This document shows positions 1-58,884 of a stretch of DNA of 64,000 nt, piece after piece. The notes under the pieces are model-generated. The model did not search any database. It saw only the letters and a program-made list of their open reading frames with translations, and was not told where the DNA came from. The position numbers were made by a program, and so were the translations under genes. Source of the DNA: Sphaerolaimus hirsutus (Eukaryota; Nematoda; Chromadorea; Monhysterida; Sphaerolaimidae). Numbering within the stretch: position 1 is the first letter of the stretch; every line of letters starts with the position of its first letter. The DNA is taken from contig OZ038460.1 in assembly GCA_964036195.1 (NCBI GenBank), positions 18,231,504 through 18,295,503 on the forward strand. The letters are read 5' to 3'.

Positions 1-3000
1 CTTTCATCGGGCCCGCAAATATATCTTTGCAATAAACTGCGCACTTGCACACTGTTCAATTTGTAACAAGTGGAACCTAAAACCGCCAAATCTCCAGTGG
101 ACGATTTTGGGGCCTCTAAAAGTTTTAGCGCCTGGGTAATCCTGTCCAAATGGCATTCTGCAGCAAGTTCTAAACCTTGGCGCTGTGCCCATGACTGAAA
201 ATTTTGTTGCGGATTTTGTATCAAAGTGTGTGGAAAAATGGAAGGTGAATGGTTAAAAAAACAAATTTACCTACAAGGAAAGTAATAAGTGACAAATATG
301 TAAAGTAAAGATGCTAAGTCAAGTAAACTTGAGTAGGACAAGTGTCGTCACCTTTGTCAAATTTGTCACTTACCAGTTTACTTCATATTTAACTTGACAC
401 TTGACAGTTACTAAAGTTTATTTGACATTTGACTGACAACTTGGTGCCACTCCCAGTAAAATCTCAAATGCCCTGTAAAATGTCAAGTATCATGAAAATT
501 GTCAAAAGTCATGTAAAATGCCATGTAAAAAGTCAAACGACAGGTAAAAAGAAAAAAAACTTGAAATTCTCCATGACATGCAAGACATTTGTCATTTTGC
601 AGGGTGCAGGACTGCTACCCGACCTATCACTTCCCATCACACGTTCACTTTCAAATTTGGACCCCCCCCCCCCAGAAAAAAACCCACCCCCACAAACCTG
701 AACTCTAGCCAATCTCTCCTGCAATCGTCTAGCCCATTTTCTGCTGCAATAAACAGTACCCTCCCTGCTAACAAGCCAATTAAACAGGTACATATTGACG
801 TAATGAAATAATTGACTGAATAATTGAATCGTGAAGGCGGCGTTCAAACGACACGATCTCAACATCGACATTGCTGAAGATAACATTCTCACGCAGCTGT
901 CTGAAATTGGGGGGGGGGATTAGGCGAGACGGAAGAAATTTTTGAAACGATTTTTGAATGGGGGGATAAGGGCGGCGATTTAGTAAATATATAGGCTTTT
1001 TCGAGGCATAGAAGCGAAAATAGGTAAAACTGCTAAAATATGTGAAAAGTAGGTATTAGCACTTATTTATATAGCAAAAAAGTAGCTGAAAACAAGTAAT
1101 GAAGGGTATAAAGGCAGGATAATTAGCGATTTTGAGCAAAAAATAGGGTAAAATTTCCCAAAAAAGCTCCAGATTTAGCTGGCCGTTTTCGGATAGGTGG
1201 GGGTTCAGGGGATAGTAGCCAAAAAAAATTGCCTCCATGATAGGGCTCCGCACCTGTACGCACAAACGCCCGGCGCGCACAAACGCCTGGCACGCACAAA
1301 ATGAAAGTCCGGTACGCACAAACGCCCGGTATGCACAAAACTGTAGCTGTGTGCGTGCCGCACAATGTGCGTGCCAGTCGTTTGTGCACGCCGGTCATAT
1401 GTGCGGGCGTGGCCAGGCTCTCCGTTGATGAAACGCGCTAAGAGTGAAACGCGTAACCGCGCTCTTACGCGTTTCACATAACGCGTATTTACATAATTTT
1501 ACATGACTTCTGACAATTTGCATGACATTTTACAAAGCATTTTACCAGCCTTTTGACACTTTGCATGACATGACACTTTGATAAATGAACACTTTTATCA
1601 AACAGGGAGACAGCGTGGCAATTCTATGACGTTAACGGGCGACGGTGGCAGTAATGTGCAGCACGGTTTGCATAACTTGAACAGCGCTGGAGTTATGCCC
1701 AGCGCGGTTCACATAACTTGAACTGCGCTGCGCATGCATCAGCGCGGTTGACAATCGGGCGTGAAACGTGCCAGCGCTCGCTTGGAGTGAAATGTATTTA
1801 CAGTTGTCACATGACTTTTCACTTTACTTAAAAACGTGCCAAATATTTTTTTTGGAAGCATCCAGGTGCTCATGTATGGGGGGCAAACACAAAGTGGGGG
1901 GGGGCATGTGAAAATCCCCTGCCCGCAAGGGCGTACGCAGGGGGGGGGGCGGGGGGGGCGGCCGCCCCCCCCCCCCCCGTTCGCCGGGCCAGACATAAAA
2001 TGTACCCGGAAATGGCAGTTTTGTAAGGCGATTTTGGCGCCACATTGAAAAAAATTTGCGCGCAAGCGCGCAATTCCCCATTTCCTTGTTTATATCTGTT
2101 TCACGATTAAATTTTTACCCAATAGGTGTGCCTAGTACCACATTTTTGTGTAGTAATAGGTACGTGTAGAGTATACGTTGGCGCCAGCGCCAACGCCAAT
2201 ACTTCTTGGCGCTGGTGCCTGTAAATGGCGCCAGCGCCATGACCCCATTGCGTACCACAGGGCCAAATTTTAGGGGGGGGGGGGCGCCGCCCCCCCCGTT
2301 CGCCGGGCTCCGTATACAATCCGCCCCCCCCGCTCAAAAATCCTGCGTACGTCCCTGCCTGCCCGGTACGCACAAATGACTGGCACGCACAAATGACCGG
2401 TACGCACAAATGCCCGGTACGCACAGAGCATCAGATTTGTGCGTACCAGGCATTTGTGCGTGGCGGGCTCAATTTTGTGCGTGCCGGGCGTTTGTGCGCG
2501 CCAGGCGTTTGTGCGTAGGAGGCCTGGCCCCATGATAGATAGCTCAGCGACCTCGGGGATAGATAGATAGTTGGTGCGTATGGGGATCACCCCCGCTCAA
2601 CCATATCTACATCTAAATGCACAAAAATCGGATTATCAACGCACATAACAAAAAAGCACCCCTAACTCACCAGCCGCCTGCTCATCATCATTATCATCCA
2701 CCAGCATATCAGGCATCAACTCTCTCAGTTGATGTCTAAAGCACGCGGTCAGATGTCCAAAGGCTCTCTCGACAGCCTCGGCTAGTTGCTCCTGGGGGCA
2801 CTCACAGACCCTGTAAAATGCCCTGTCAAATGTAAAATGTCATGTAAAGTGTCTAAAGTCATGTCAAATGACCTGTAATATGGCAGACGTTCGTTCGCCT
2901 CGTTACAGGACATTTTACATGATTTTAGACACTTTGCATGACATTTGACATTTCACAGGGCATTTTACATGGTCTGGGAGTGGCACCTGGGGCTCTGGTT

Positions 3001-21000: not shown

Positions 21001-23854
21001 CGTTTGTGCAATACAAGCTAAATAAAACCAGGCCCTTGTCTACTATTACTGAACCTTAAACAAATAGGCGTTCCAAATGACAAAAACGTGTAAAGAAGAT
21101 TTCTTCGCAGGTTTGTCCCAAAATTATCGGGACAACCCCAAACGCGCGTGCAAAAAAAATTAGAACTGAGAAGTAAAAAAATGCTGAGACAATAATGGCA
21201 AGTAACAACAAATTTCTGACTTTTTTTCTAAATTTTCATTTGCGGCTTTGCCACCTCACTTCTCACTTACAACTTTACATATCTTTCAACTTTTTACGTC
21301 TCACTTCTTAATTGCTTAATTACATATCCATTCCCAGAATCGGCACCAGGAACCGAATTCAATTAAAACACATTTAAAATAGACGCACGACAACCCGCGC
21401 CTTAAATGCGCCCTACCTTCTAATTGGATCGGGGCCCAGGTAACAAAACGAAATTGATTGACCCGTGCCCACAAAAGGAAGCGCGGACAAATCCTTTCAT
21501 GAAAATTATGGGATTGGGCCCGCGCGCGCGCAGCAGTGAAAAATTGAAGTGCGCTGGCATTGTTATTATTAGAAATAATTGGAATGTGAGAAAAAACGAA
21601 TGGTGCTTCTATGACTCCCAGTTGACCGGAAGTCAACTGAGCTAGCGGTCAACTAAAAACACGAATTGCTTTAAACACGTTCCAGTTGGAATTGGATCAT
21701 TTTTGACATTACTAGTTCAATAAATGTCAATTTAAAAAATTAAAAATAAAATAAAAATTCCAACCTTCACTCATGACTCTCAATTTAGCCACTTGTCTTT
21801 CCCTGCGCTTTTTCATGACAATTTCCGGGTTTGAGATTGTTCTTGTAAATGTCGTCGGCGGCACTTCGTCGTAAATCGAGCTGCCGAATTTTTACACGCA
21901 GATAAATTTTTGTATTTCCGATGGAAATTTTCAAATATTATTTAAAAATAGTTTGTTCAACAAAATGTGACCGATTATCAAAAAAATGACTTTGCATTCA
22001 GTTTGTATACTCGGCGTACATGATACTCTGCACTCGCACTGATTTATGTCTCGTGTTGGAAGCGTGCCAATGATTATCAAATCATGCGATTTCCGTAAAA
22101 AGATGAAAAAAATTCATCGATGTGAATATATTAATGAATAACAGTATAACAACAATCATTTTTGTCATCTTTTTATGAAACTCGCACGCGTTAACCATCA
22201 TTGGTGCACTTCCAGCGGGAACCACGCGTGCAAGGTGTAAAGTAACCGGAGTATATTGTATTTTTTTGCTTAAGTTTGTTTAAGTTTACACATTTAGACA
22301 CGATTTTGACCCCATAATTGTGCTCCAAAAATTGTTCAACAAATATTTAAGTACTGTAATTTAAGTAATTGGAAACCAAATGCCAGACCATCATCTCGGC
22401 GAAGTCTCAATTTTTTCAAAAGTTTTTTACTTGAAAATTTTTGGTCAATTTTCTATTTCTCACTAACCGCACATCTTCCGCTTCCATTGTTCTGCGCGGC
22501 TGTAAATCGGCGCATTTTTTCATCTGCTCTTGGCGCTTTTCCAACTTTTTCTTGTCTCTCTTGGATAATTTTCGCTTCATACTTGTGCTGCCCATGTTCG
22601 TGTCTTGGATGGACTGCGTTTTTTAGGTTTGAAAGACAAATTATGTGCGTAACCCCGTCGACTAAGTGACAAATCGTCGACTAAGTGTCACGCCAAGTGT
22701 CAAAATCACAGTTGATAGTTTATAGGGTATCTGAAACTTTCTCTTCAATCCCTCACGCGGTAGCACAGAATTTCCCAAAATTAAAAAATTAAATTCTAAA
22801 ACAATGAACCAACCTGTAGCGGCAAATACTGCGGACCCCTTCTTTTGAGCACAAATCTACCCTCCCTGTTATCGTTATGCCATGTCAACTGAACCAAAAG
22901 CGGTTTTTCATCCATCTCTAATTGTCTTTCTTCCCCGCTCAAATGGACCTCATGTAAAGTGTACGTCGGGTCGGAAAGCATTCTCAAGTCTGAGGGAAAA
23001 TAAAGTGTCAATAGTCATATACAGAGGGAAAATAAAGTGTCAATAGTCATATACAATGACAATGGAAAATGCCCTGTGATATGTCATGCAAAGTACCAAA
23101 GCGAAACGTCATGAAAGTCAGGGTCATGTATGCGAAAAGTGAGGGAAAATGTCAGATGTCATACAAACTGCCAAAAATGTTAGCGTCAAAAGTCATATAA
23201 AAGTCCCTGTAAAATGGCAAACTAATTTGGCATTTCACATAACTTAAAACACTTTGCCTGACATACGCAAAATTCCCTGCAAAATTTCATAACTTTTGAC
23301 ACTTCGGATGACATTTTACATTTTACAGGGTCTGGAGGTGGCACCTGGATGGAACTTTTCTACTAGTGCATCTATAACTGCCTGAGTTGTGGCTGTACTT
23401 GAGACACGTAGACATTTTGTAGCCACTTTTTGACCGGGTTCTTGGAAGTAGAAACGCATTACGCCGTGGAATTCCATGTCCTGGGAAAAATAATTAAGTA
23501 TTTGTTAGGTAGAGTAGCATGTCCTAGCCAATTAGGCACTTTATCGAGTGACAGGAAAAGTGGCGAAAATTTTACGCGACACTAGTCAGGAGACAAGAGA
23601 CTTGTGACAACAAGTCTCTTGTCTCCTGACTAATGTGAATTCGTACGGACTAAGAAAACATGGTACATAAACTCAACGTTACTTTTTTGGACAGCTGCCA
23701 ACGACTATGGCAACAAACGAAAGAATCCAACACAAACTACAAAACTATAAAAACCCACCTCATTAGGCTCACTCAGAGCGAATAAATCGAGGCGATTTTC
23801 ATTCCAAGCATTAATCATTTTCCTCAATTTGTGCAAATCTTCACTGCCAGCCAT
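1..23854 (-). CDS. AFDN: Afadin (canoe), N-terminal ~800 residues, gene runs off left edge
   Basis: Afadin links Ras/Rap signalling and nectin/cadherin junctions to actin at the cell cortex. Sixteen exons fit by phase: 23854-23759, 23480-23345, 22989-22814, 22613-22468, 21880-21771, 12065-11908, 11564-11457, 10236-10080, 9758-9658, 8698-8476, 7409-7260, 3808-3600, 3100-2987, 2791-2671, 900-698, 194-1. The ATG at 23854 gives the family N-terminus (NRLDLFALSEPNE). Seen in order: first RA domain (~35-135, HEVHLSGEERQLEMDEKP), basic linker with FTRTISNPEIVMKKRR, second RA domain (~222-360, LKIYGPELSPHRLYV), FHA domain (~397-470, LFGPYVYPRHC, SHVFRFED), and DIL/cargo-binding domain (NAAFTIQLFSQLFHYVNMYL, then QGLELAAECHLDRI). 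PDZ and actin-binding parts lie outside the window. Intron 5 is 9.7 kb; introns 2 and 13 are introners. The exon 10 donor and exon 11 acceptor were chosen by phase and are the least certain. Family identity is very secure; exon edges are inferred. Confidence 0.93.
195..697 (-). repeat. Afadin last visible intron with two foldback copies
   Basis: Between exons 16 and 15. At 240-430 lies an inverted repeat rich in AAGTGACAAGT (family II). At 441-620 lies a copy of the introner family (GGTGCCACTCCCAGTAAAATC ... CAGGGTGCAGGACTGC) that is inside the intron but not flush with its splice sites. A poly-C run near 661 belongs to the donor-side intron sequence. Confidence 0.6.
901..2670. repeat. Afadin intron 14: composite of inverted arrays and G-tract elements
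   Basis: Contains a foldback array of a ~18-20 bp unit CGGTACGCACAAATGCC (1245-1400 direct; 2360-2520 direct then inverted). Other parts are an AACGCGTTTCAC/GCGCTG inverted block (1425-1760), a G/C-tract element near GTACGCAGG (about 1870-2060 and 2265-2365), a GGCGCCAGCGCC palindrome (2180-2245) and a partial introner-family arm (1500-1595). No coding signal was seen. Confidence 0.55.
2792..2986 (-). mobile_element. Introner: foldback element forming all of afadin intron 13 (195 bp, phase 0)
   Basis: The cleanest example. Exon 13 ends GAGCCCCAG and the intron starts GTGCCACTCCCAGACC. It ends GGTCTGTGAGTGCCCCCAG directly before exon 14 (GAGCAACTAGCC). The termini are inverted repeats of each other. 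The body is palindromic, with CTGTAAAATG/CATTTTACAG and TGTCATGCAAAGTGTC/GACACTTTACATGACA arms. CCCAG occurs at both ends, consistent with a short target duplication supplying the acceptor. Splicing joins two DIL-region exons in frame. Confidence 0.92.
3825..4012. repeat. Tandem repeat (GGATAGTTATGTACT / GGATACTTATGT units)
   Basis: About 190 bp of tandemly repeated GTACTGGATACTTATGT-like units in afadin intron 11, starting just upstream of exon 12. A longer block containing TTATAGATGGATACTCATG appears twice in direct order (about 3900-3955 and 3948-4000). No coding function is suggested. Confidence 0.75.
4555..5642. mobile_element. Foldback element with AGGGTTGG ends and a nested introner-family copy
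   Basis: Ends TTCTGAACAGGGTTGG (4555) and CCAACCCTGATTCTGAA (5620-5640) are inverted. Inside are A/T-rich arms (TTTTACAAAAATTTTA at 4680-4750 and 5420-5510; TTTTATTTTATTTT tracts). The centre (about 4945-5385) is an introner-family palindrome with a GTATCCAAA(T/C)CTTATG repeat at its middle. It looks like a nested insertion in afadin intron 11. Confidence 0.6.
5790..6055. mobile_element. Foldback of the CCGTATTTCCTCGAAATACCCC family
   Basis: Left end ACCGTATTTCCTCGAATTAT followed by CCCCCC. Right end GGGGGGATATTTCGAGGAAATACGGT. The core contains a sequence shared with the copies at 16130-16260, 24480-24600 and 48600-48720 (GATGGTATAAACxxTGTTCTAACG). Lies in afadin intron 11. Confidence 0.75.
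6275..7125. repeat. Two family-II foldbacks (AAGTGACAAGT arms)
   Basis: 6275-6545 and 6945-7125 are each inverted repeats built from AAGTGACAAGT/ACTTGTCACTT and AAGTGGTAAGT-like words, the same family that frames the VPS39 4.5-kb intron. Between them (6550-6940) I see no clear repeat or coding pattern. Confidence 0.6.
7166..7206 (-). other. GC-rich hairpin just inside afadin intron 11, shared with VPS39
   Basis: On the minus strand TTTTTTTGCCCGACGCCCGA is followed by TTTTTCGGGCAGCC, about 54 nt after the exon 11 donor. A near-identical block lies about 36 nt after a VPS39 donor (38609-38646). GCCCGA and TCGGGC can pair as a stem. Function unknown; it could be a short repeat remnant. Confidence 0.5.
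7410..8475. other. Afadin intron 10, no recognisable content
   Basis: A/T-rich unique-looking sequence. I found no supported exon, RNA gene or repeat family here, apart from short T and A runs. The region 7715-8040 has open frames, but they match nothing I recognise and lack supporting splice context. Confidence 0.4.
8745..9560. mobile_element. CTATCTATCTATCCCGG foldback in afadin intron 9
   Basis: Outer ends GACCCTCCGAGTGGTTGGAT (8754-8773) and ATCCAACCACTCGGAGGGTC (9497-9516) are exact inverted repeats. Inside are GCTATCTATCTATCCCGGAG repeats and long G and C runs. Related copies lie near 2530-2595, 16957-17570, 29868-29935 and 34190-34265. Confidence 0.7.
10491..11163. mobile_element. TIR element TATAGTCGGCAGACATGATA in afadin intron 7
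   Basis: Left end TATAGTCGGCAGACATGATA, right end TATCATGTCTGCCGAGTATA, an almost perfect inverted pair. An internal partial copy of the terminus occurs near 10650. The interior is A/T-rich with a 73-codon minus-strand open frame (10851-11072) that I do not recognise. The termini resemble those of the ~248-bp TATACTC elements. Confidence 0.65.
11170..11335. mobile_element. GGCGCCA / CTACGTCCCTGG element fragment
   Basis: A GGCGCCAATGCAACTCCAAT-like palindromic block is followed by CACATTTTAGGGGGGGCGTT, CCGTATACAATCCGCC and CTGGCTACGTCCCTGG. The same order of blocks occurs at 2175-2365 and 17895-18345, marking a repeat family with internal G or C tracts. Confidence 0.6.
12123..12335. mobile_element. 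Palindromic MITE, ends TTGTGCCTGCGCACACTAG / CTAGTGTGCGCAGGGCC
   Basis: Terminal arms ATTGTGCCTGCGCACACTA...TTTTCACATGAATTTTCG and the inverted arm ...CGTGTGAAAACTAGTGTGCG, with GTTGAC/GTCAAC in the middle. A close relative sits at 61556-61752, where the duplicated segment gives an empty-site comparison. A second GTCAACTGGTTTGCATGTCAA block abuts it at 12340-12545. Confidence 0.75.
12550..13905. repeat. Repeat-like block with three GAAAATATAAATGAGAA words
   Basis: GAAAATATAAATGAGAA near 12748 recurs inverted near 13612 and 13778. The interval includes GGGGGTGCC and CACCCCC tracts and GTGCATTTAAATGAGAA at the left edge. Probably a larger composite element in afadin intron 5; no coding similarity recognised. 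Confidence 0.4.
13906..15440. other. Part of afadin intron 5 without recognisable feature
   Basis: A/T-rich. A short GTCAAC...GTTGAC inverted pair (13937-13965) is the only structure I noticed. No supported exon or RNA gene. Confidence 0.35.
15448..15712. mobile_element. Family-II foldback with TTCCACAAATTGAGAAGTG arms
   Basis: Left GTTCCACAAATTGAGAAGTG and right CACTTCTCAGTTTGCTGAAC are inverted. Arms are made of GAAGTGAGAAGTGAA/TTCACTTCTCACTTC. A sister copy lies at 56893-57092 with GGAACTGGCCC ends. Confidence 0.7.
15945..16400. mobile_element. CCGTATTTCCTCGAAATA family, complex copy
   Basis: Left ACCGTATTTCCTCGAAATAT and right TATTTCGAGGAAATACGGTA. Several GGGGGGTATTTCGAGGGGGG units flank a core with TTCTAACGTG and a second core near 16200-16280. 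The copy appears to be internally duplicated. Confidence 0.75.
16452..16952. mobile_element. GGTTCAAACGGGAT element filled with GGGATC hexamers
   Basis: Ends GGTTCAAACGGGATTGAC and ATCCCGTTTGAACCCTAGT are inverted. Both arms are GGGATCGGGATTG hexamer runs; the middle (16620-16800) is unique. Relatives: 30152-30404 (GGGATC/GGGACC) and 35456-36272 (GGTCCC). Lies in afadin intron 5. Confidence 0.75.
16957..17570. mobile_element. CTATCTATCTATCCCGG element interrupted by a TATACTC element
   Basis: Left part (16957-17200) has GCTATCTATCTATCCCGG and a C run. The right part (17455-17570) resumes with TTAGCTATATTTCATATACT and a C run. The interval 17205-17452 is a nested copy of the ~248-bp element described separately. 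Confidence 0.6.
17205..17452 (+). mobile_element. ~248-bp TATA(C/T)TC(C/G)G element, copy 1
   Basis: Begins TATATTCCGGTTACTTTACA and ends CGTACGCCGAGTATA. It shares its full length with 22008-22255 (inverted), 25078-25327 and 54757-55006 (inverted). Conserved internal blocks include CACGCGTGGTTCCCGCTGG, AGTGTGCCAACGATGGTTAA and GACATAAATCAGTGCGAGG. No ORF; non-autonomous. Confidence 0.8.
17895..18345. mobile_element. GGACGTATCCAGGATTTTTGAGCG element with G/C tracts
   Basis: Left CAGGGACGTATCCAGGATTT and right CCTGGATACGGCCCTG are inverted ends. Inside are GGGGGGGGGGCTGAGCCCCC runs, a GGCGCCAGCGCCA block and a second G/C run at 18293-18325. Same family as 11170-11335 and 2175-2365. Confidence 0.7.
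18425..18640. mobile_element. Palindromic MITE remnant (GTTGACGGTGATTTC centre)
   Basis: Left CATTGGCACTGCTCACATAAG and right AGTAGTGTGTGCAGCG. The arms ATTTTGAGTTAAGCTTG and CTCAAATAAGTTAAAACC are only loosely inverted, so this is a degraded relative of the 12123-12335 family. Confidence 0.45.
19480..19800. mobile_element. CCGTATTTCCTCGAAATA family copy
   Basis: Left ACAGTATTTCCTCGAAATAC, right GGGGGGGTAACTCGGTATAC then CGGTATTTTG. Internal GGGGGGGGGGTATTTCAAGGG and an ATTACACAGATCAAAAACTTG core. More diverged than the copies at 15945 and 48495. Confidence 0.6.
19801..21159. other. Part of afadin intron 5, nothing recognised
   Basis: No exon, RNA gene or clear inverted repeat supported. 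A scatter of TTGTCAAGTGACAAGG-like words (20310-20400) hints at an old family-II copy. Confidence 0.3.
22008..22255 (-). mobile_element. ~248-bp TATACTC element, copy 2 (inverted)
   Basis: Begins TATACTCGGCGTACATGATA and ends AAAGTAACCGGAGTATA, the reverse complement of the copies at 17205 and 25078. In afadin intron 4. Confidence 0.8.
22990..23344 (-). mobile_element. Introner: foldback element forming all of afadin intron 2 (355 bp, phase 1)
   Basis: Exon 2 ends CATCCAG and the intron begins GTGCCACCTCCAGACCCTG, the terminal repeat of the window-wide foldback family. The intron ends CCCTCAG directly before exon 3 (ACTTGAGAATG). The body consists of family motifs in both orientations (TGTAAAATG, ACTTTGCATGACAT, CATTTTACAGGG). 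A 30-nt AAAATAAAGTGTC-type unit is repeated at the 3' end (about 22993-23050), where the right terminus has decayed. The joined frame gives KFHPDLRML, matching afadin across the junction. Confidence 0.85.
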
Positions 23855-24284
23855 TTTCGAAATAAATTTTTCGAAAATAAATTTTCAGGCGAATAAATGA
23901 TAAGTATAATAAGGCGAATAATATGATATGTATAGGTAATTCGAATGGAGTGAAAGTGTCGGAATTTCAGATCATCGTTGCGTCTTGGTCCTGAAACGAA
24001 AGAAAATCAGCGAAAAATGTTGGTAAAAAGCCAAACGCCACACCCAAGGACATAACCTGGGAATTTTCTTTTTGTGAAAAAAAACTACAGCCGTTCCTTC
24101 GGTCCGGAAAGTGTCCAATAAAATATCGGCGTTAAATCGTAGAAAAATACGCACAAACGAACACCAAAATGAGACAAAAACTCAGCAATCGGCGAGCCTA
24201 TAGAACGAAAAATGGAATAAAATATTTAGACCGTAACGAATAGCGTCTACACACAGTTACCGTGCTTTACGAACAGATGCCAGT

Positions 24285-24445
24285 CTCATACCCTGTAAAA
24301 TGTCACGCAGTGTCTAAAGCCATGGAAAATGCCCTGGAATATGTCAAATGTTATGCAAAGTGTCAAAAGTCATGTAAAATGGCTTGGAAAATGGTTTTAC
24401 ATGACGTTCGACACTTTGCATGTCATTTGACATTTTACGGGGCTT
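24285..24445. mobile_element. Introner-family foldback upstream of afadin
   Basis: CCCTGTAAAATGTCACGCAG ... GCAAAGTGTCAAAAGTCATG ... TTTTACATGACGTTCGACAC ... CATTTGACATTTTACGGGG. It lies upstream of the afadin start codon, outside the visible coding exons, so here it is a plain insertion. It is followed at 24470-24705 by a CCGTATTTCCTCGA-family copy. Confidence 0.7.
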
Positions 24446-24469
24446 TTTTACAAGGTATCGGAATGTATA

Positions 24470-25327: not shown

Positions 25328-25634
25328 ATATTTTGATGTGCCCCGCATCGCATACACACCGCTAAGAAATTTCAGATATTTTAATATTTTATTGCATTTA
25401 AAAAAATCTAAATCTCCCGAGATTTTTGGAACGCTAACCAGACATTGAATTGAAACCATCCGATACCCAAAACAGCAATATTAAATTCTATTGTAAATCG
25501 CTGATTTGACAACTTGACTGTGTGTAATATTTGATTAATGTCATTTTTAGTTCGGGATTACAATTCATAAAATGAAATCGGCGGTGTAAAACGCAGCTAA
25601 CGGAAAGCCGAAAGCTAAATAACATATTGGCGGC

Positions 25635-26035
25635 CCACACACTAGTTGCCACGTGTCAACTCAAATTTCGGCTTCACGGCTTGCAGAGGGGTCTCCAAAT
25701 GTGCATACGGCAATGTTGAAAAATAAATAGGGGGACTTATTCGAGGGGGTTATTCAAGGGGGGACTTATTCGAGGGGATCATCAAGAGGGGGAATTAATC
25801 GCGTAAATGCGAATTTTTATGCAAATTGGGATTGGCATGGGATTTCGAAAACGGGATCGGAACTGCCGACTTTTGAAAATTCCGATTGTCCATGAAAGGG
25901 AATGCAATCAATTGGAACTTAATGTGCAATACTACGGCAGTGCATTGGAAGACCGTGTGCGACACTTGAAGTCGAGACCTGAGTTGACACAGACCAGTTG
26001 ACACGCTGTGTCAACTTGTGTGTGCAGCCATTATT
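25635..26035. mobile_element. MITE with GCCCACACACTAGTTGCCACGTG / GTGTGTGCAGCC ends, with nested insert
   Basis: Left GGCCCACACACTAGTTGCC and GTGTCAACTCAAATTTCGGC, right GTTGACACGCTGTGTCAACTTGTGTGTGCAGCC. Between them (about 25725-25880) sit GGGGGACTTATTCGAGGGGG tracts and a GGGATTGG stretch, probably nested insertions. Copy B equivalent: 58885-59140. Confidence 0.6.
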
Positions 26036-26176
26036 GAAAATGTCATTGTAAACTGAACCACCCGTATAAGCCGCATCTATATAAAGCACCACCGATTTCG
26101 CATTAAATAATAGTTTGTCGAATAGCTTAAAATTCCGAAAATTTCTCAAACCTAAAAACCACAGAAAAATTGAAAA

Positions 26177-28155
26177 ATGTTTCTGAAGTTTCTCTCGTGC
26201 TCACTGCTGCTGGCAAATGTGGCGTTTTCCATGGATGATGTCTCACAGTTGTCACTAGAATCTGTCACAGCTGTGAGTTTCGCGTGGAACCGTAGATACC
26301 GTATTTCTTCTAATAGAAAGCCGCCCTACTATTTTTTCGTCAACTTTTTTACCCGCCGTTCTTTTGGAGACCAGTCCTTCTATTGAGAGAAATACGGTAG
26401 TCTTTGCAAGGTTCTGTGTCAGTGCCTCTAAATTTTATTTTGAACATACACTGGTTAGAATTACACCCCCCCCCCCCCAAATACTCACGACGATATTATA
26501 TTGGGATAAAAATATAATGATCTGAAATGTACAATGCTTAAATACAAGCATAACACAGAATACACAAACTGCGCCTAGATGTGTGTCAGAAAACATGGCG
26601 CTGTGGCGCCATTCCAAAAATAGCGCCAACCCCCAATGGCCGGCGCCATTGGCGCCCCGGTGTCAGAGCCGTGGCACAATCCCATCACTAGCCCAGGGGG
26701 ATGTCCGAGACTCTTTAAAAAGCCCTGTAAAATATCAAATACCATGCAAAGTGTCTAAATAGCAAACGTTTGCATTTAACGCCATTTTAAACATAAAATT
26801 GTGCATTTTACAACAACGGGCATTTTAAATGTACATAAAAATAGATTATTGTCAACCACAGTTGATGGGGGGTCAAAGGTAAATAAAAGTTGCCGAATCT
26901 AAATCTCGTGTAATGCAGCTGGAAAACAAAGCAGTTCGCGAGTGCCTTACATGCATGATGCTCACAGCCGCCCACAGCGACCAGAAGTACACAAAGTCTA
27001 CACTGAGGCAGGCTCTTTTCGAGGCACACATGCAGTTGGTTTAACGGTTCCAATGCGTACTAGTTGACCGTCAACTCGAAAATGTTTGAAAGTTTGAGTT
27101 TTAATTGACGGATGCATCATGTTGGGCCTCCCTTCACTACAGTAATCCACGAAGACTAGAGATAAGTGTCTACAACAAGCAATCAAACAGATTTTCAGTT
27201 GACCGTTGGACTAGGGTGTCAACAAAATGTTTTTTTACGGAAAACGGAAACGGAAATTTTTGTTCCACTTGCCGGAAAACGGAAGCGGAAAAAATTTTGC
27301 CGGTGGAAAGCGGAAACGGAAATGGCAAAATTTGTGCCTGCGGAAAACGGAAAAGGAAAATTTTTGGCAGTTGCCGGAAAACGGAAACAGAAAATTTTTG
27401 CACTTACCGGAAAACGGAAAAAAAATTTGCCAGCGGAAAGCGGAAACGGAAAGTTGACACCCTACGTTGGACTACTGTCAATTAGTGCGTAGGCACAATA
27501 CCACAAGTTATCACGCCTTACCCGAATCACAACAAAACTGCCAAACGGTAAATCAAGTCACATGTAAAAATCATAAGTGACTAGTAAATTCGTAGGAGAT
27601 TTGCCTGTCACCGATAGGTTTACCGATGGGTTCACCCGCGTTTTTAGTGTCATTGTCAAGTATTACCTGTCAAATGTCAAGTTTCTAGTAACACGTAGAA
27701 TAGTCGGATCACTTGACAAATTGTCAGATGTCAACTCAACAAAACGCCCCCACAGATGCGAATTCAAAAGCAAAGGCGAAACTTGCCCAAACGACCCAGC
27801 AGTGTCCATGGCGATTTTCGGAGTGGGCAAGGAACTGGTATTCAAAATAGAAGCGTCAGGTGCCAACCCCAGACCCTGTAAAATGCCATGTAAAATGTGA
27901 AATGTCAGGCAAACTGTCAAAGTCATAAATATAAAATACCCTGCAAAACGGCAAGCGTACGTTTGCCATTTTCAGGACAATTTACATGACTTTGACACTT
28001 TACCTGTCATTTGACATTTTACAGGTCAATTTACAGGGTTTGGGACTGCCCCAGATCAAACATTTGACTCGACTCAAGCACTTGTCAATGTTGCCGCCGG
28101 TCCACTTTTTCCACACATCGAAGGACTCGATGTGGCTTTCGCGGAGGGAAAGTGA
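26177..28155 (+). CDS. Small predicted secreted protein, 138 aa, copy A
   Basis: Not recognised. Four exons fit by phase: 26177-26272, 26919-27034, 27756-27859, 28055-28155 (TGA). Residues 1-18 form a signal peptide (charged MFLK start, hydrophobic LLLANVAFS, then acidic DD). The mature part is ~120 aa with four cysteines (41, 44, 72, 81; CLTC and CEFKSKGETC) and a hydrophobic C-terminal half (ALVNVAAGPLFPHIEGL), so it is probably extracellular and disulfide-bonded. The start is the first ATG and gives the signal peptide. Intron 3 is an introner read on the plus strand; intron 1 holds a TTCTTCTAATAGAA palindrome (26290-26398). The gene lies between divergently oriented neighbours and has an intact duplicate at 59288. 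Open frames, matching phases in both copies and frame-preserving differences support it as real. Confidence 0.75.
26290..26398. mobile_element. Palindrome CCGTATTTCTTCTAATAGAA ... TTCTATTGAGAGAAATACGG
   Basis: Short foldback at the start of secreted-protein intron 1, about 17 nt after the donor. The same element is in copy B (59411-59509), and its arms also frame the nested block in the VPS39 intron (39903 and 44060-44115). Confidence 0.75.
26703..26835. mobile_element. Introner-family copy inside secreted-protein intron 1
   Basis: AAAAGCCCTGTAAAATATCAAA ... CATTTTAAATGT. Not flush with the splice sites. Preceded by a GGCGCCATTGGCGCC block (26595-26660). The copy B equivalent is about 59815-59945. 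Confidence 0.6.
27165..27560. mobile_element. GGAAACGGAAAC element nested in a palindrome, copy A only
   Basis: Ends CTAGGGTGTCAAC (27211-27223) and GTTGACACCCTA (27452-27463) enclose tandem GGAAAACGGAAACGGAAA. The outer interval is absent in copy B, which reads straight from GAAGACTAGAG to CACATGTAAAAATC, so it inserted after the duplication (or was lost from B). A partial relative lies at 57738-57782. Confidence 0.65.
27860..28054 (+). mobile_element. Introner: foldback forming all of secreted-protein intron 3 (195 bp, phase 1)
   Basis: Exon 3 ends GCGTCAG and the intron begins GTGCCAACCCCAGACCCTG. It ends GGTTTGGGACTGCCCCAG directly before exon 4 (ATCAAAC). The arms are palindromic (CCATGTAAAATG, CAGGCAAACTGTCAAAGTCA and the inverse). 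The joined frame runs to a stop 33 codons later. The gene is on the plus strand, opposite to the other introner-bearing genes. Confidence 0.88.
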
Positions 28156-28749
28156 TGTGATTTTTTTACATTGGAAAACTTGTTGGCGGTGATTTCAGAA
28201 TGATTGAAGGAGATTGTTAAAGTTTTTGTTTTTAAACTTTAACCGCAAAAGTAGAGTTTTAATACACAGTAAAATTCTCAAGTATCTTACCGACACTTTA
28301 CCAGGGTAGGAAATATCTCAGGTATCGAAATCGACCTTCGTTGAACTTTACTTGAAAGTTGCGAGCTAACAATGACAAGCGCATGCGACTAAAAATAGGT
28401 AGTTGCCTTTAAAAATTTCTGTTTTACGTCTACGTACAGTAACGTTCGTTTTCGTTACTGTACGACAGTGGCACGCGTTTTCCACGCTGGCAAACTTCCA
28501 ACGTGAGACATAAATCAGCGCGAGTGTAAACTGTGCGGTCCGCGACATAAACACATTTTCATGCTAGCCATCACCATCAAAACAAGGAAAACACAAACTG
28601 GAAGACAAAAAGAACCTCTGAACGAAATTACACGATTTTTGCATGCGGGAAAAAATCACATTCAACAGACTGAAGGCAAAAATAATGAGACCAGTAAATA
28701 TTTACGCAACTGAGCAAAGGGCTTCGTTTTCATCGATTATTTCCAGTTT

Positions 28750-31700: not shown

Positions 31701-34700
31701 GTGTTACTTTGTAAATACATACATGACAATGTTTACGGAAACACAAAATCACATGCGAATAACATGCCATTTAATACGAGACGCCAAAGTTGCGTAAAAG
31801 CGCAATTATTTTACACTACGGCACCATTGCGTTGGCGTATGCATCAAAACAGCGTTTTCCACAAGCCATTCCCACCCAAAACTCGAAACCCACCACCATA
31901 AAGCTTATGGAAACTCTTCGATCCATCTAGGGCATGCCTCAAATCGAGCACGCATCTGGAGCACTCCCAGACCCTGTGAAATGCCCTGTAGAATGTAAAA
32001 CGTCATGCAAAGTGTCAAAAGTCATGTCAAATGTAGAATGCCATGAAAGGGTCTGAAGTAATGTAAAATGCTCTGCAAGATTGCGAACTTCATTTTACAT
32101 TTTACAGTGTAAAAAATATATCATGCAAAGTGTCACATTTTCCACCACCTTCGCCACTTCGCACGACATTCCCCACTTCCAGAGCACTTCCCAGGGTGCG
32201 AGACTGCCGCCTGCAGTTGATGCCCCAAGTAGCCCTGAGGCGTTTGCAATCGTCGGCGATGTTCACGCCCACGAGCAGAATGTCGGGCCGCAGCAGTAGG
32301 GCGAGCAGGGTCGCGGGGGGGTAGGGCATGAAGCACAGACGCAATAGCACTGCAGTGGTGCACGTGGATAGCTGGGGGGGGGGTGGGGGTTGGAAACATG
32401 TGCATGTATAATTGGACTAATGATGGCTCTAAAAACGAGTTTATGATAATTGAATTTATTCTTAGTGTAGTGATGAAAAAACACAATTGTAAGACCCCTA
32501 AACCTATTTGTATAAGCCAAACTTTATATTTATGTATTTACAACCACAGAGACATCTTTCTCAAAATTGCGGTTTGGGTTATTGAAATCCTTATCTTGAG
32601 AACATTGTCGAACCCCGTGAGATGCGGTGAATTAACAAAATTTAAGCAAAGTAAAGGAAATAAGTAAAGTAAGGCACAGGAAAATAACAATAAAATATAT
32701 AACGCATCGCCTATTTTCAATTTCGATTTTACAAACGATTTCGGAGATATCCTAATTCTGACACTTTTTCCAACCCCAATATCACTCGAACCAGCAGCTG
32801 TGGGAAATAACACCCCTGGGCAACTGATAAATATCAGAGTCGACCATTGTGTGCGGCTGTCCAGGGATGTTTGCTGCCCACCGCGCACACACAATTGTCC
32901 ACCGAGCGCGTTTCCCCTCGAGTTATCCGCCCATCCACCCCCGCACCTGCAACAGAGGTACCCTGTGCAGGCGCATGTTGTCTTGCCAGGGGGTACCCCC
33001 CAGGGGGTACTTATCCCCCTTGTCCTGGTCGTTGTACTCGATGTCCAACCCCAGCACTGGCACCTTGCCAAGCTCGGACACGAGGCGCTGCGAAGTGTTG
33101 GTTTAGTTTTGGGTGTTTTTTCGTGTGGGGGAGCAGAAATGTGGTTTAAAAATGATTTTTTTTCTACATACCTATTTAGGTAGGTATATATATATTCTAT
33201 ATTTATTAATTTATGATAAGAATAATATATAGAATGCGCGAATAAAGGGAATGCGGCATAGTTGTTAAAACGTATTTACTTTTACTCGATAAATACGTAT
33301 ACTCGAGTACAGAGTAAATACGTTTACGTTTCCTCCGAAAAAAGTTGTGGTACTCGCTTTTACGTATACTTTTTGAAAGTACTCGAGTACAGAAAACGTA
33401 TTTTAGATAGTCTTTTATATAGGTTTTTGAAGGCATGGCAAGGAAAAAATGGAGAAAATGAGCTAAAAATACAGGAAACTAGTCGAAAATAGGTATAGAA
33501 CCAAAAATATAGTCACAAATTGCGTAAAATAGGCAAAAAGTTATGAAAATGACTGATTTTGAGTGAGATTTCTCGAAAATTTTGGCGACATTTCTCAAAA
33601 GTACTCACATTTACGTTTTCTGCAGGGAAAAGTACGTTTACTCATAAGTAAAAAAAATTTACTTTATGTTTTCTGTACTCAAGGGGTGAGTAAAAAATAA
33701 ATACTTTACGTTTACGTATACTTTGAAAAACGTTCGGTACTTTTAACAACTCTGGAATGCGGTAGGGACATAACGGTATTTGGTACAAATGACAAAATTT
33801 ATATGGCTTTCAGAAAATAAACCAAAGCTTGCCACCGAATAAATAAGGTGTATAACATAGTTCGGCCAAATTTGCAGCGAGGGTGCTGTGTGCATAGCAC
33901 CTTGAAAATTGACATCAAATACTGCATTTTCAGTCTTTCAGTTCTCATCCGCGAAGAGGGGGGCTACAGCAACACCCCACCCCCATGGAACACAACCAGA
34001 CATCATCCCAAGGGCCTAGGCACCCCCAACCGACCATCCTCACACTTTCCCAGTGGCTTATGGTGTAGCACACGTAGACAGTGGCCGGGGGCTGCACGTT
34101 GAGCAGCTCAAAGCTCGCCGGTTCACAGTCGGTCGCAACCCCCAGCTGACGCACCCCACATGCGCGGTGCTGGGGGGGGGGGCGGGTAAATGCATTTGGT
34201 AGAGGGGTCTCCAATGGGGTTGGGGTTACCCCCTCCGCTGAGCTATCTACCTAATTAAAAGCTAATCAGGGCTACCCCTAGACCACGTAAATAGAAAATG
34301 TCACGTACTCTTTTTTTGAGAAAATTCAAAGTTAACAGGGTCTGTGAGTGCCCACGCAGGTGCGTAATGGCTGCAGGCGGCCGGTTGAAGTTAAAAGTGA
34401 CAGGTAAAAATGTTGACAAAGCAACAAACTTTATTAACGAGCATTAATCGAAATTTCAAGCGATCCCAGGACACACAAAACGAAAAGTAAAGCCTGACAG
34501 ACCACGAAAACATCAAACGCCAAAATGCCTCAACCACCCCCCCACAAACGTACTCACCATAGCACCAGAATAAACCTTCGGTTTAGCCCTAGCCCCCTTT
34601 AGGGCATCCTCCAAACACACAGCCGACATGGACGCTCGCAGGGAGCTCAAACTCTCAAAGGCGTTTTGGCCAGGTGCCAAATTTGAGTTGACCCCTTCAT

Positions 34701-37285: not shown

Positions 37286-37445
37286 CCTGGTGCCCTAGAC
37301 CCTGTAAAATGTAAAATCTCACGCAAAGATATTAAAGTGACGTAAAGTACCAATTTTACTTTTGTTTTTGTACTGGACGCTTGACACTTTTCTGTTGTGT
37401 TTTGCACGACATTTTACATTTCACAGAGTTTGGTATGGCCCCCTG
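37286..37445 (-). mobile_element. Introner-family copy just after the VPS39 stop, with CCAG on both sides
   Basis: On the minus strand GCGGCCAG is followed by GGGGCCATACCAAACTCTG. The other end is CAGGGTCTAGGGCACCAG and then GTTCATTCG. The CCAG flanks fit a short target duplication. The first bases are GG, not GT, so splicing as a 3'UTR intron would need a non-canonical donor. Confidence 0.6.
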
Positions 37446-37500: not shown

Positions 37501-40500
37501 TCACTGGTTGACAACTGCGGCGCCGGGGTTCAACTTGTAGCAGTAATAGTGCACCAGGGTGCCGTTGCAATGTCGCACGAAGGCACTGTGTGGAATTGAG
37601 ATTGAGCCCAGGTGCCAATCCCAGACATTGTAAAATGACCTGTAAAATGTAAAATGTCATGAAAACTGTCAAAAGTAATGTAAAAACTCGATTGCCATTT
37701 TGCAGAGCATTTTACATGACTTTTGACACTTTACTTTTGCAGGGCATTTTACAGTGTCTGGGATTGCCTCCTTGTTGCCCCCACAGGAAACGTATTTCAG
37801 ATAGGCTTTTATATTGTGTGTTTTTCCAGACATGAAGGAAAAAAAACGAAGAAAAAAGCAAAAAATTAGGCCGCGTTTGCACGGATTTTTTGTGACGACT
37901 CAACATCATTAAAAAGTTCATTAAGTTGAGTAAAAACGTGCCATATTCATGGGAAAAAATGATTAACTGTATATTCTACCTAGGTGAAAATGCATGTCAA
38001 ATTGCAGAATCGTGCCTGTAGCTTAGACCTATATGCGTTTGAAACAATTTTGCTGTTGTCGCTGGCTGTCGGGAGACTGTCCGACAAGGGCAAATTTTTT
38101 TCAAACGTCTTTAAGTTTGAGCTACAAACACGATTCTGCAATTTATCATGTATATTCGCCTAGGTTGAATGTACAATTTACCACTTTTTCTCATGAATTT
38201 GGAACTTTTTTACTCAATTTTTTTAACTTTTTAGTGATGTTGAGTCGTCACAAAAAATCCGTGTAAACGCGGCCTAAGGAAAAATTTCCAAAATAGTTTT
38301 TAAAAAGTGGCAAAAACACATTAACTACATAGTAAATTTGAGGGTGAAAACCTTGGGAAACGCATGGGAATTTGTGATTTCGAGCGAAAGTTGAGGCAAA
38401 GTTTATCAAAAATATCAACTTTTACGTTTTCCGGGAACAAAAGTAATTTACTCAAGTTTACTCATGAGTAAAAGTATAAAAAAATACTTTACGTTATCTG
38501 AACTCAGCACTGAGCAAAAAATAAATACTTAAAGTTTACTTTTACTTTCAAAAAGTTCAGTACTTTTAACAACTCCGGTTTCACGATACAAATTTTACAC
38601 AGAAAATTGGGCTGCCCGAAAAAATGTCGGGCATCGGGCAAAAAATCGACACCACATTCTATTCCGCACCGTCCTACAAACCTGTTTCCCAATTTTTTGT
38701 CGCACTGGGCGCACGTGGTGTTGGCGTCAACTACAAAAGATTGTTTTTGGACGAGCGACTTTTCCGCGCGTCGACGCATTTTTGCCGCCGCCGCCAGACT
38801 GCAACTCATTTGACTCGATCTGACAAATGGCAAATGACAAAAGTTATCGTTCGACAAAAAATCACCACAAAAAATAGTTGCCAACTGGGATTTTTTAACA
38901 CATGTGGTGTCAAATTGCCTTCAAACACTATAACATGTTATATTAGGTTGATTAGATTGTGTTATCATGACTTCTTTGAAATTCCCTAAATTAAATACAG
39001 TCTATTTAAGATACAAAGTAGATTTAGATGTGGGATGGGTTTAGATGTGGGATGAGCCTACGTCCTATAGACCCCCCATAAATGAAGCCAGTCTGTGCAA
39101 ACTCCGCCCACTCGCCTGGTAGTTTGAGCGGCGGCGGTGAGCAGGGGCTCGACGGCCAGCCAGCACGTGGCCAGGGGCGCGCACTCGGGCAGACACGAGA
39201 TCGCCGCTTCTGCGATTACAAATGCGCACTTACGTGTGGATGTTTTGTTATAAAATACCCGTGGACATCATTGCCCACTAGACATCTCTACCGCTGGAGA
39301 ATTCTTAATGCGCTAATGGAGAGAAACGTTGCATGGAATGTAATATGACCAGTTAGCTGTGATGTTCTTGAGTCTGATAATGGTTACATTCCATCCATAT
39401 ACATTTTTAAAACCAGATTTGCGGAAACTTACGTTTATCCAGAATACTCAGGTATTTTTTCCGTTAACGGATAATTACGTTAACATCTTCTCAAAAACAA
39501 CAACATGACGCTTGCCTACCCTTTCCTGATAAAAATACCTGGGTACTAAGAAAACGTAAAAATATTCTTTTTAACTCTCTTCCTTTCCTTTGAACTAAAA
39601 AACTTCCTTTCAACAACTTTAAAAAAATAAAAACTTGTCGAAATGAAATCGTTTCCCCATCACTGTAACTGAACACCGCAGAGCATGCCCACTAAAATCC
39701 ACCAACCCACCAGTATCCATCTTATCAGCAAAATTTGCCAGCACCCTTAAAGCCAGATGAACATTGGGCTGATTGGGCGGCTTTGGACACGCGTAAGCCC
39801 TCAAGAGATGTACAAAGACCATGCTTCCATCTGGGTCCACACCTGGCGCCGATTTCGCAAGTGGACAAGTGACAAGGGAAGTGGTAAGTGGTCAATGAAT
39901 TTGCAGTATTTCTTCTAATAGAATGGCATATTTCCGTCCCACAATAGAAGGGCACCGCAAATAGAACGACGAGTTTTGTTTTGTTTTTCCAATAGAATCG
40001 CAGGTAAAAAATATGTTGGAAGAAAGCCTAAACACAAAAAAATGCCTAAATGGATGGAGAGAATGTTCAGACCAAAACGATTATCTACAAGCTCTTTTCG
40101 CTCGCATGTTTTCTTTTGTTCATTTCATGCTCGGATATTAAAATGTTGTTCAAGTTTCATCAAAGATTCCAACTACTGTATTTACTCGAATAATTCCCCC
40201 CACTCGAATAATTCCCCCTCGAATAATTCCCCCCTGCTAGACGAGTGAGGAAAAAATAATTCCCCCACTTGAATAATCCCCCCACAATGAACGAGAATAA
40301 ATAATGCGCATTTTTTTAAAAGACAATCGATGAAATCAAACCAAGAAAAATAGCAGTGCCTCGTTTGATTCATCGAATACAAATGCAGCACATTCGGTTT
40401 GTAAGGATGCAAAGGAATGTGCACTACGAATGGAAATTGGACGTAAATGTGAGGCGTCTAATTCTAAAAGTCGACAAGTCCACAAAATGTGATTTCGAGT

Positions 40501-50335: not shown

Positions 50336-52335
50336 AGTAGCAAAAAGAGTAGCAAAAAGAGTAATTTACTTGGACAGACCTTTTTCATCGCTGAAATTGT
50401 AAATATCATTGAAAAATTATATCATTTCAATATTTACTTGGACAGACCTTTTTCATCCCTGAAATTGTAAATATCATTGAAAAATTATATCATTTCATAT
50501 AACATTTTATTCACTTTTCAATGTAATAAATATTTCAAATATATCATCATTATTAATATTTATATAGGGTATTGCTTTATTGAATTCATCGTTTGAAATG
50601 AAATACAGATTTTGGTATTATAGTAGCGGTGCGGTGCTTTAGTTATTTTAATATTATATTAGATTTCGGTATTTTAGTTTTAGTTTTAGTTACTTTTACA
50701 CTGCATAATAGGTGAGTAAAATAATATTTTTCCCAGATAAAACGTAAAATCAAGTATTTAATCCACGGAAAGCGTATTTATGTAGCATAGAAAACATAAA
50801 AATCGGTATTTTTTTCACACAGAAAACTTAAACGTGAGTATTTTTCTCACAAAAATAATGCAAAAATCAGTGTGTGTTTTTACAATTTTTACTCTGAAAT
50901 ACATCACAAATGTGTTTTTCTCTCCTGATAAGTATGCCCCAGAAAATGAAAACAGCGAGTAAATTTCCAGAGTTGTTAAAATACCTGTATTTTTGGAAAG
51001 TGTAAGTGTAAGCATAAATACACTTTTCAAATTTTGAGTATGGATACTGTAAGTGTAAGGTATTTTTAAAATACCTAAGAAAGTGTAAAAAAGTGGCGAA
51101 AACTGAAATTTCATTGCTGCTTTCACTAATCCCATCTATTTGTGTTACGCCCCCTTGGTTGTCGGTTGAGCTTGTATTTACGTATTTACCATTATTTACT
51201 TTCCATTTTCATTTCCCCCACCAGGTGCCACTCCCAGACGCTGTAACAAGCCCTGTAAAATGTCAAATGTCATTCATGCAAAGTGTCAAAAGTCCGCTGG
51301 GCTGGGGCCGGCCATTCCAAGCGCTAACGATGGCAAAAAAAATCAAAAGTTCGAAAATGTTTTTGAATTTTGCAAACAAAATTATGATGCTACATTTGCA
51401 CACAACGAAATTCAAGACGGAAAGAAATGGCAGTTTACTAAAATATTTATTTTTGATGTCTGTTTTTTTTGCACAAAAGCATTGAAAAACATATCATGAA
51501 ACATTACCAAGCTAAAGTAGTTTTCGCGCCGGCCTTTTTGTGTGTATTTTCTTTAAGTCGGGAAGAAACACCAATCCAACTAAAATAATTATATCTACTT
51601 TTTGTTCTGTTGTTTTTTGCACAAAAGCATTGAAAAACATGTTATTGAACATTTATGAGCAAAAGTAGACTTGGTGCCAACAGTTGTGTAAGTATCTTCC
51701 AAACAAATTTATTGTGCTACATTTTCACACAATGGCAAAATCATTGCAAAATACAGAAAAATGCTGGTGCCAAGGCTACTTTTGTTCAAAAATATTCAAT
51801 AAAATGTTTTACAATGCTTTTGTGCAAAAAAAATTACAATAAAAACAAATATATATATTCTAGATGGTTGCGGTTTCTTTCTGTCTTGAAGAAAATACTC
51901 ACAAACATGCTGATGCCATGTCTACTTCTGCTAGGAAATGTTCTACAACATGTTTTTCAATGCTTTTGTGCTAAAAACAGACATCAAAAATAAATATAAA
52001 TATTTTACTCAACTGCCATTTCTTTCCGTTTTGAAAAAAATACTCACAAACATGCTGGCGCCAAGTCTACTTTTGCTCGCAAATGTTCTACGACATGTTT
52101 TTCAATGCTTTTGTGCAAAAAACAGACATCAAAAATAAATATAAATTGTTTACTCAACTGCCGTTTCTTTCCATCTTAAAGAAAACTCAAAACACAGAAA
52201 GTGGTTTTTTAAAGAATTTAACAGTTCAACAACAACAAAAAGGTTTTTATACACTACATATGTATCTGCTATGTTAACATACGTTAACACTCTTTTGTAT
52301 TTTGTATTTTCATCAATCATTTTTTCATTTTCATC
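50336..52335. repeat. Repeat-rich block, no gene recognised
   Basis: 50360-50515: ~95-bp direct duplication (TTTACTTGGACAGACCTTTT twice). 50680-51075: GAGTTGTTAAAATAC family. 51222-51300: left half of an introner-family copy after CCACCAG. 51310-52200: direct ~145-bp units (starting near 51938 and 52083: ATGTTTTTCAATGCTTTTGTGC, ACAGACATCAAAAATAAATA) plus inverted partial units near 51455-51680. Confidence 0.55.
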
Positions 52336-57092: not shown

Positions 57093-57909
57093 GTGGGGTC
57101 TATTCCAGGGGTCAATTCCGCAAGTGTAGTTGCCAATCAACACTGGTGCCACTCACATACCATGTAAAATGTGTCAAAAGTCATGTAAAATCCATAAAAT
57201 CCAGTAAAACATAAAAGAAAATTTTGTATTTTACACGGCATTTTACTTGACTTTTGTTATCCATGCACAAAATACTTTCACTATAATTCCACTTTCACAA
57301 TACTTTCACTATAATAGTGATTCTTGACATTTTCCAAAATATGGGACATAAATGTGATGTTTTAAAACAAAGTTCAACATTTATGCATCATTTTTATGGT
57401 TCACTACATTTGCACATAATGGCTCTGTACACAAAAGTTTTCAACAGAAACGTTTAAAAACTAATACATATGCTTTGAGTGCATTTCAGTTTTGTAAAAT
57501 GAGTCACTTTTATTTTCAGTCAACTGTAGGTAACAGTCACCTCATTCTAGAAAACTTGAATGCATTCAAAGCTGATTTACAACGTTTTGAGAGTTTGGTT
57601 AAAAACTAGTGTGTGCATAAACAATAGTGATTCTTGACATTTTCCAAAATACGGGACATAAATGTGATGTTTTAAAACAAAGTTCAACATTTATGCATCA
57701 TTTTTATGGTTCACTACATTTGCACATAATGGCACATAATCCTGCGGAAAGGCGGAAACGGAAACGGAAATTTGACACCCTAGTGCAAGGTGCCATAGAT
57801 ATTTCAGGAGTTAAATACCTAGGTAGGTAGGTATTTTTTCATAAAACTATTTAGTAAATTAATTGTATAGATCGGCTGTAAATTAATTGTATAAATCACA
57901 GGGAACGTA

Positions 57910-58670: not shown

Positions 58671-58884
58671 ATTTTTGGAACGCTAACCAGACATTGAATT
58701 GAAACCATCCGATACCCGAAACAGCAATGTTCAATTTTATTGTAAATCACTGATTTGACAACTTGACTGTGTGTAATATTTGATGAATGTCATTTTTAGT
58801 TCGGGATTACAATTGATAAAATGTAATCGGCGGTGTAAAACGCAGCTAACGGAAAGCCGCACCGATGCAATGTTGAATATTGGC

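Follow-up and report, generated by a model that had tools for sequence, protein, structure and literature searches.

Introners are recorded from 175 of 3,325 genomes, and the animals with introners are described as belonging to only two groups, copepods being named (Gozashti et al. 2022, PMC9860276). The tunicate Oikopleura dioica is counted among the first introner hosts (PMC10597677), and introner transposons with weak splice sites are mentioned in a discussion of tunicates (PMC13326754). The introners described by Gozashti et al. share several features with the family reported here, including sequence similarity that reaches both ends, target site duplications combined with terminal inverted repeats, a splice site recruited from the duplication, and an occurrence in aquatic lineages (PMC9860276). 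In contrast to those introners as described, the present family has a duplication that is a palindromic 3-bp CWG, so that insertions at CTG cannot supply an AG, and some CTG insertions lie in conserved exons.

The NuwaI group of PIF/Harbinger (PHIS) transposons is defined by a 5'-CWG-3' target duplication and was found in 16 animal genomes, one of them from a crustacean (Han et al. 2015, PMC4482050). The CWG duplication, short terminal inverted repeats and a GGG outer end at one terminus are common to NuwaI and the present family, and NuwaI is described from animals only (PMC4482050). In that description the NuwaI inverted repeat usually begins with GGG, whereas here one end reads GGGGCA and the other GTGCCA, and the present elements are short, noncoding and nearly palindromic.

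Two further systems are comparable. The introner elements of Amoebophrya have inverted repeats that fold into hairpins joining the exon ends, and short direct repeats at the boundaries (PMC7789003). As described, they form mainly noncanonical introns for which family-specific ends were not found; the present elements, in contrast, form one family with defined ends, with GT-AG (GC-AG in one case) boundaries at CAG sites. In SOS splicing, DNA transposons are excised from animal mRNAs (Zhao et al. 2026, as described in PMC13247085), with RTCB given as a host factor. The substrates of SOS splicing are likewise transposons with inverted ends, and a hairpin is predicted for the elements studied here.

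The window, a stretch of 64,000 nucleotides from the nematode Sphaerolaimus hirsutus (G000:C16:18231504-18295503), contains introns that probably derive from an introner family. This family would be a non-autonomous, near-palindromic DNA transposon that inserts at CWG with a 3-bp duplication, is spliced out, and is moved by a Harbinger-type transposase acting in trans; we assign this reading a probability of roughly 0.88. Direct observations are the structure of the repeats, the duplicated target, the precise match to coding exons and the empty site in a paralog. Three points are new: the splice sites can be accounted for by a CWG duplication, lipase genes occur both with and without the insert, and some conserved exons carry insertions at CTG, which are puzzling. 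The earlier note's introner interpretation is supported: introns in unrelated genes are filled from end to end by a single inverted-repeat family, 3-bp target duplications accompany it, and a lipase paralog lacks the insert.

Introns probably formed by the family in the window

The earlier note had proposed five introns that coincide end to end with family copies. Each was removed and the open frames were joined, with exon limits set by eye, and in all five cases the result is an uninterrupted protein (Table 1). Four of them run from GTGCC.. (GCGGC.. in one) to ..CAG as proposed, but the intron at 22990..23344 matches the family at its 5' end only; its 3' inverted end is lost, and it terminates in TTTATTTTCCCTCAG. 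Because two of the five lie in a segmental duplication, they represent one insertion, and four independent introns remain, three of which keep both inverted ends. These four occur in three unrelated kinds of gene, and afadin holds two of the introns. The afadin and EXD2-like genes lie on the minus strand and the secreted-protein gene on the plus strand, and the spliced frames bear out the occurrence of all three phases.

Table 1. Family copies, copies whose joined junction is spanned by a Pfam domain, and neighboring features. Slashes mark intron boundaries.
Feature	Window position or copy	Strand	Details
Introner, whole intron, afadin DIL region	2792..2986	-	195 bp, phase 0; CAG/GTGCC...GCCCC/CAG; hairpin z -15.9
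Introner-derived intron, afadin RA domain 1	22990..23344	-	355 bp, phase 1; hairpin z -1.7
Introner, whole intron, EXD2-like exonuclease	31956..32210	-	255 bp, phase 2, GC-AG
Introner, whole intron, secreted-protein gene copy 1	27860..28054	+	195 bp, phase 1
Same insertion, segmental-duplicate copy 2	60581..60776	+	196 bp, extra C before terminal CAG
Complete copy	37612..37770	+	CAG 5' flank; matching 3' copy absent
Diverged copy	37290..37442	+	flanked by CTG direct repeats, judged from the sequence; automatic pairing placed the 5' end 4 bases further out
Diverged copy	24277..24465	+	upstream of afadin start; CAG at 5' flank only
Partial copy	51225..51294	+	CAG beside GT end
Partial copy	57146..57240	+	CTG beside GT end; 3' limit approximate, by eye
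Copy with domain across junction	L013		Neur_chan_LBD 9.6e-19
Copy with domain across junction	L028		CHGN 3.4e-16
Copy with domain across junction	L034		PAN_1 7e-4, below Pfam cut-off
Copy with domain across junction	L059		Carn_acyltransf 2.9e-16
Copy with domain across junction	L061		Abhydro_lipase 1.3e-12
Copy with domain across junction	L062		Abhydro_lipase 2.4e-27
Copy with domain across junction	L065		Glyco_transf_11 1.7e-4, below cut-off, mostly downstream
Copy with domain across junction	L079		COMM 1.2e-4
Copy with domain across junction	L083		bestrophin 1.2e-22
Recurring block: secreted-protein gene and part of EXD2-like gene	25410-31054; 58659-63998, continuing downstream
Different near-palindromic stretch of ~190 bp	61556-61748 (approximate)		in duplicate copy 2, absent from copy 1; looks like a recent insertion
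VPS39-like gene	~38504-47223, perhaps to 52 kb	-	Pfam Vps39_1 2.6e-14 at 46675-47223; zf-Vps39_C weak at 38504-38920; further exons by eye
29-bp tandem unit, 49 copies	53141-54560		464-codon minus-strand open frame over most

The predicted spliced proteins match known domains at two of the window introns. The afadin RA product matches Pfam RA (5e-20) and aligns without gaps at the junction to afadin in PDB 6amb, and the EXD2-like product matches DNA_pol_A_exo1 (2.8e-8) and aligns, likewise without gaps at the junction, to EXD2 in PDB 6k17. Homology at the junction is also gapless in a lipase gene elsewhere in the genome (L062), with one gap immediately ahead of the last two residues on its upstream side. 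At 2792..2986 the exon is presumably the DIL region, to judge from vertebrate afadin; the spliced frame is open and continuous, Pfam DIL matches only downstream of the junction, and no PDB relative was found for the junction. The secreted protein has no Pfam family. Its gene occurs in three tandem copies, the third downstream of the window (L009, L010), and the segmental-duplication blocks within the window are 81-95% identical. All three tandem copies keep the intron, and no intron-free paralog was found.

The family end GTGCCACTCCCAGACC has 14 matches in the window at three mismatches or fewer (shuffled sequences: mean 0.19, maximum 2). A window scan for any 3-bp duplication flanked by inverted ends gave 53 matches, of which three were CWG, with no excess; its exact criteria miss diverged copies and indels in C runs.

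Target sites and putative splice sites across the genome

The exact 16-base end GTGCCACTCCCAGACC is found 1,733 times (868 + 865) in the 348.5-Mb assembly of 762 contigs, and the reversed motif is absent. The terminal pair of the family consists of GTGCCACTCCCAGACC at one end and GGGGCASTCCCAGACC at the other. Of 100 exact-end places listed, all on contig C1, 85 were fetched (up to 18.8 Mb); six of the other 15 belong to a single cluster near 16.5 Mb. Among the 84 distinct exact ends obtained, 71 have an inverted partner (five mismatches or fewer, within 700 bp), with a median element length of 188 bp and a CCCC terminus in 39 of the 71. Six copies (L041, L042, L086, L069, L070 and L085) share their 14-bp flanks with a copy that was retained, and dropping them left 65 complete, non-redundant copies. 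Identical 14-bp flanks at separate places of C1 define the groups L040/L041/L042/L086, L068/L069/L070 and L082/L085, which are duplicates that carried the insert along.

The ends of most copies are predicted to pair. Minimum-free-energy folds place at least eight pairs between the two ends in 64 of 66 copies, and ten sampled copies compared with shuffled sequences gave predicted hairpin z scores of -7.0 to -27.2. Four of the five window introns score -8.8 to -15.9, and the hairpin of the afadin RA copy is lost.

The trinucleotides on either side of the element are identical in 37 of the 65 copies, and all 37 are CAG or CTG. By class (5',3'), there are 25 CAG,CAG, 12 CTG,CTG and six CTG,CAG copies, with other combinations in 22. 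Because the matching flanks are direct repeats, they represent target duplications and are not part of the inverted ends; the family therefore combines a target site duplication with terminal inverted repeats. Where both flanks are CWG (44 copies), the favored bases are A at -5 (20 copies) and C at -4 (24 copies), followed by G, T and C at +1 to +3 (22, 21 and 22), a local insertion preference of about ACCWGGTC. We take this to resemble the zebrafish Harbinger target consensus; a text search of the literature for such a zebrafish consensus found nothing.

Copied spliced intron RNA might also spread one sequence family of introns to many genes, as proposed for fungal introner-like elements. Such reverse splicing is very hard to credit here: it does account for a shared family, but inverted ends and a 3-bp target duplication speak against it, as do the many copies for which no coding junction was found and the use of CTG besides CAG sites.

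Transposition into CWG would explain the splice sites directly. Where the target is CAG on the sense strand and the GT end of the element lies upstream, the first CAG and the GT of the element would form the donor CAG/GTGCC, and the second CAG copy would supply the acceptor AG. The spliceosome would then remove the element with one repeat and leave the mRNA unchanged; the exon would be restored because the element starts with GT and the second CAG provides the acceptor. Movement would depend on a NuwaI-like transposase of Harbinger type, supplied in trans. The usual donor consensus is GTRAGT, to which the donor GTGCCA is a poor match.

Duplicated genes bear on the position of the acceptor. The insert ends in CCCCAG and CCCCCAG in the secreted-gene copies and in GCTCCAG and GCCCCCAG in the EXD2 copies, in each case with a one-base length difference before the terminal CAG, yet the exons remain in frame, which favors the terminal CAG as acceptor. 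The second EXD2-like gene copy also keeps the GC donor and terminal CAG. Exact extended ends in the whole genome carry CAG 605 times and CTG 519 times at the 5' end, as against 1,277 and 884 times at the 3' end. The CAG excess is larger at the 3' end (p 0.004; the two patterns sample different subfamilies), as expected if AG on the acceptor side is kept by selection. Mixed flanks among the 71 copies are CTG,CAG in six and CAG,CTG in one, a difference that is not significant (sign test, p 0.125).

The CWG repeat points to transposition of the NuwaI/Harbinger kind. Elements of this kind depend for their movement on a DDE transposase and its Myb/SANT partner. The Harbinger-type transposase domain PF13359 has 163 matches in the genome, on many contigs, and more than 100 of these have nearly equal scores and spans, which suggests that the transposase family was recently active. 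No match could be tied to the family ends: by eye, all 15 PF13359 matches listed on C1 are more than 3 kb away from any of the exact ends listed. Many PF13359 matches contain an excess of about 190 nt, which was considered as a possible nested introner and set aside: one stretch that was read has short ordinary introns (by eye), and had no significant match to two window elements.

Insertions in coding exons

For each of the 65 copies, the flanks were joined so as to omit the element together with one repeat, and the best frame with 60 nt or more open on both sides was taken. This gave 39 forward ORFs and 40 on the reverse strand. Pfam domains were matched at E 0.01 by 11 of the 39 forward ORFs and by none of the 40 reverse ORFs (Fisher p 2e-4); the forward set also included one extra frame of L080, which had no match. 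Open-frame length separates the strands weakly, with a mean shorter side of 116 nt forward and 93 nt reverse for CAG..CAG copies, and 90 and 118 nt for CTG..CAG copies.

In nine of the 65 copies the Pfam domain extends across the joined junction (Table 1). A tenth comes from a second insertion (6045-6208) in the CHGN gene of L028, with CHGN at 5.9e-16 across the junction; it was found among 42 further element pairs from the fetched loci and the window, six of which were chosen by eye and searched against Pfam. A PI-PLC-Y match in L067 does not span the junction. The HalD match of L050, below the cut-off and also not spanning, was taken as spurious. By-eye names were given to L067 (PLC-like), L050 and L029 (GPCR-like) and L014 (SMYD-like), where Pfam found nothing or a match that does not span, and L067 had no PDB match. 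In L014, two family copies (minus-strand positions 4985 and 5337) lie on either side of the SMYD-like exon. As a rough extrapolation, nine of 84 exact ends on one contig, scaled to 1,733, would correspond to about 185 coding insertions genome-wide, which is a minimum to the extent that the count is confined to Pfam-recognizable exons and exact ends.

A seamless in-frame GT-AG solution, from the GT of the element to the terminal CAG, is found in eight of the 13 copies picked as coding by Pfam or by eye, and L061 is a ninth. The 5' flank in these nine is CAG, except for CTG in L028 and L062 and CCG in L029.

Four of the ten domain-spanning copies lack the terminal AG, namely the fucosyltransferase-like L065, L083 and the second CHGN copy (all CTG,CTG) and L013 (CTG,CCG), and the simple splice model therefore does not cover them. 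Perhaps these copies are broken or nonessential alleles, assembly errors or heterozygous insertions that are never excised. This account, possible although doubtful, fits the missing AG and the stop codons found in all three frames of 61 of 65 elements. It is opposed by the exons on both sides, which share one frame and are conserved: the bestrophin copy L083 aligns without gaps over 79 residues, and Pfam domains span the junctions of the nicotinic receptor (L013, 9.6e-19) and of the second CHGN copy (5.9e-16). Also, CTG,CTG copies are no rarer among coding insertions (2 of 12, compared with 3 of 25 CAG,CAG), although these numbers are small.

A somewhat unlikely alternative is that the CTG copies are spliced at an AG within the element (GGGAG/TGCCCC/CTG), which would add three codons, or at another cryptic in-frame pair. 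The internal AG is present in eight of 12 CTG..CTG copies, as well as in 21 of 25 CAG..CAG copies, and because it lies 9 nt upstream, the frame would be kept. Solutions of this type were listed for L013 and L050, and one is readable from the sequence of L083. GC-AG pairs are also available, which would swap three codons in L050 and L083 and six in the second CHGN copy. However, neither L065 nor the second CHGN copy has the internal AG. In L013, where the terminal flank is now CCG and the Trp split by the insert is kept, its use would destroy this Trp, which belongs to a KFGSW motif common to the closest PDB relative. The bestrophin alignment likewise leaves no space for added residues.

We also suggest, tentatively and as an unlikely reading, that the element is removed whatever the W of its target: CAG insertions by the spliceosome, and CTG insertions by spliceosome-independent, hairpin-directed excision (SOS splicing) or through a TG acceptor. 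SOS splicing is triggered by inverted repeats, and AKAP17A and CAAP1 are host factors. CAAP1 has one match in this genome (6.1e-6), which is partial, covering positions 2-37 of 63.

Empty sites and the probable gain of introns

The lipase gene L062 carries an insert of 323 bp and is one of three tandem lipase genes on C1, near 12.059, 12.066 and 12.071 Mb. A tandem neighbor (C1:12071087-12071296) matches it over 70 residues (210 nt) at 97% identity. In the DNA of this neighbor the element and a single copy of the repeat, and nothing else, are absent, and CGG stands at the site in place of the CTG and CAG of L062. Another lipase copy, on C14, has one open frame across the site (residues 14-70, 84%). 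The third tandem lipase, L061, has an element at the same codon as L062, although a stop occurs further upstream in this frame. The L061 element is 88.7% identical to that of L079, and the L062 element ranks only 62nd among its 70 matches. Given this dissimilarity, the two inserts most plausibly arose independently at one favored site, but replacement by gene conversion between elements may also have produced the difference.

The bestrophin site gives a similar picture. Nine of the 18 matches listed for L083 cross the site in an open frame without stops, for example C16:13303556-13303756 (residues 1-67), and one further match crosses it with stops. A search within the window, in which the 150-bp flanks of 21 listed copies were joined, gave no match across any junction.

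Gain of an intron would be the simpler reading of the lipase and bestrophin sites. Precise intron loss may have occurred instead, and the lipase paralog alone cannot separate the two. The earlier note had inferred that this genome is gaining introns through the family. That gain still continues is less firm than stated there: it may, to judge from dissimilar elements at one lipase site whose third paralog is empty.

Alternately, the elements might have entered older introns, with the match of the ends due to chance or to later shrinkage of the intron. Some copies do appear to be intronic, such as one near 49952 in an apparent intron of the VPS39-like gene (by eye), with the likely 3' splice site beyond the element, and the afadin RA intron has a single element end. 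Both ends nevertheless coincide exactly with introns in unrelated genes, the target repeat is divided between exon and acceptor, and the intron-free lipase paralog and the nine contiguous bestrophin matches among the 18 listed also oppose this origin. Overall it is highly improbable, and for the coding copies it is already contradicted.

The origin of new introns in animals is a long-standing question, and introners have been reported from few animal groups. If the introner reading is correct, the insertion chemistry itself explains the splice sites, because a transposon that starts with GT and targets CWG turns into an intron wherever its target is CAG. Intron gain would be directly testable, since one genome has tandem genes both with and without the insert, and CTG copies in conserved exons would offer a clean test of whether structure-directed excision allows introns to be born. 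Should such excision occur, new insertions into exons would be protected for as long as they lack a canonical AG, and this stage would form a bridge between a transposon and an ordinary intron. The end state would then be represented by the afadin RA copy, whose hairpin is gone and whose acceptor is pyrimidine-rich.
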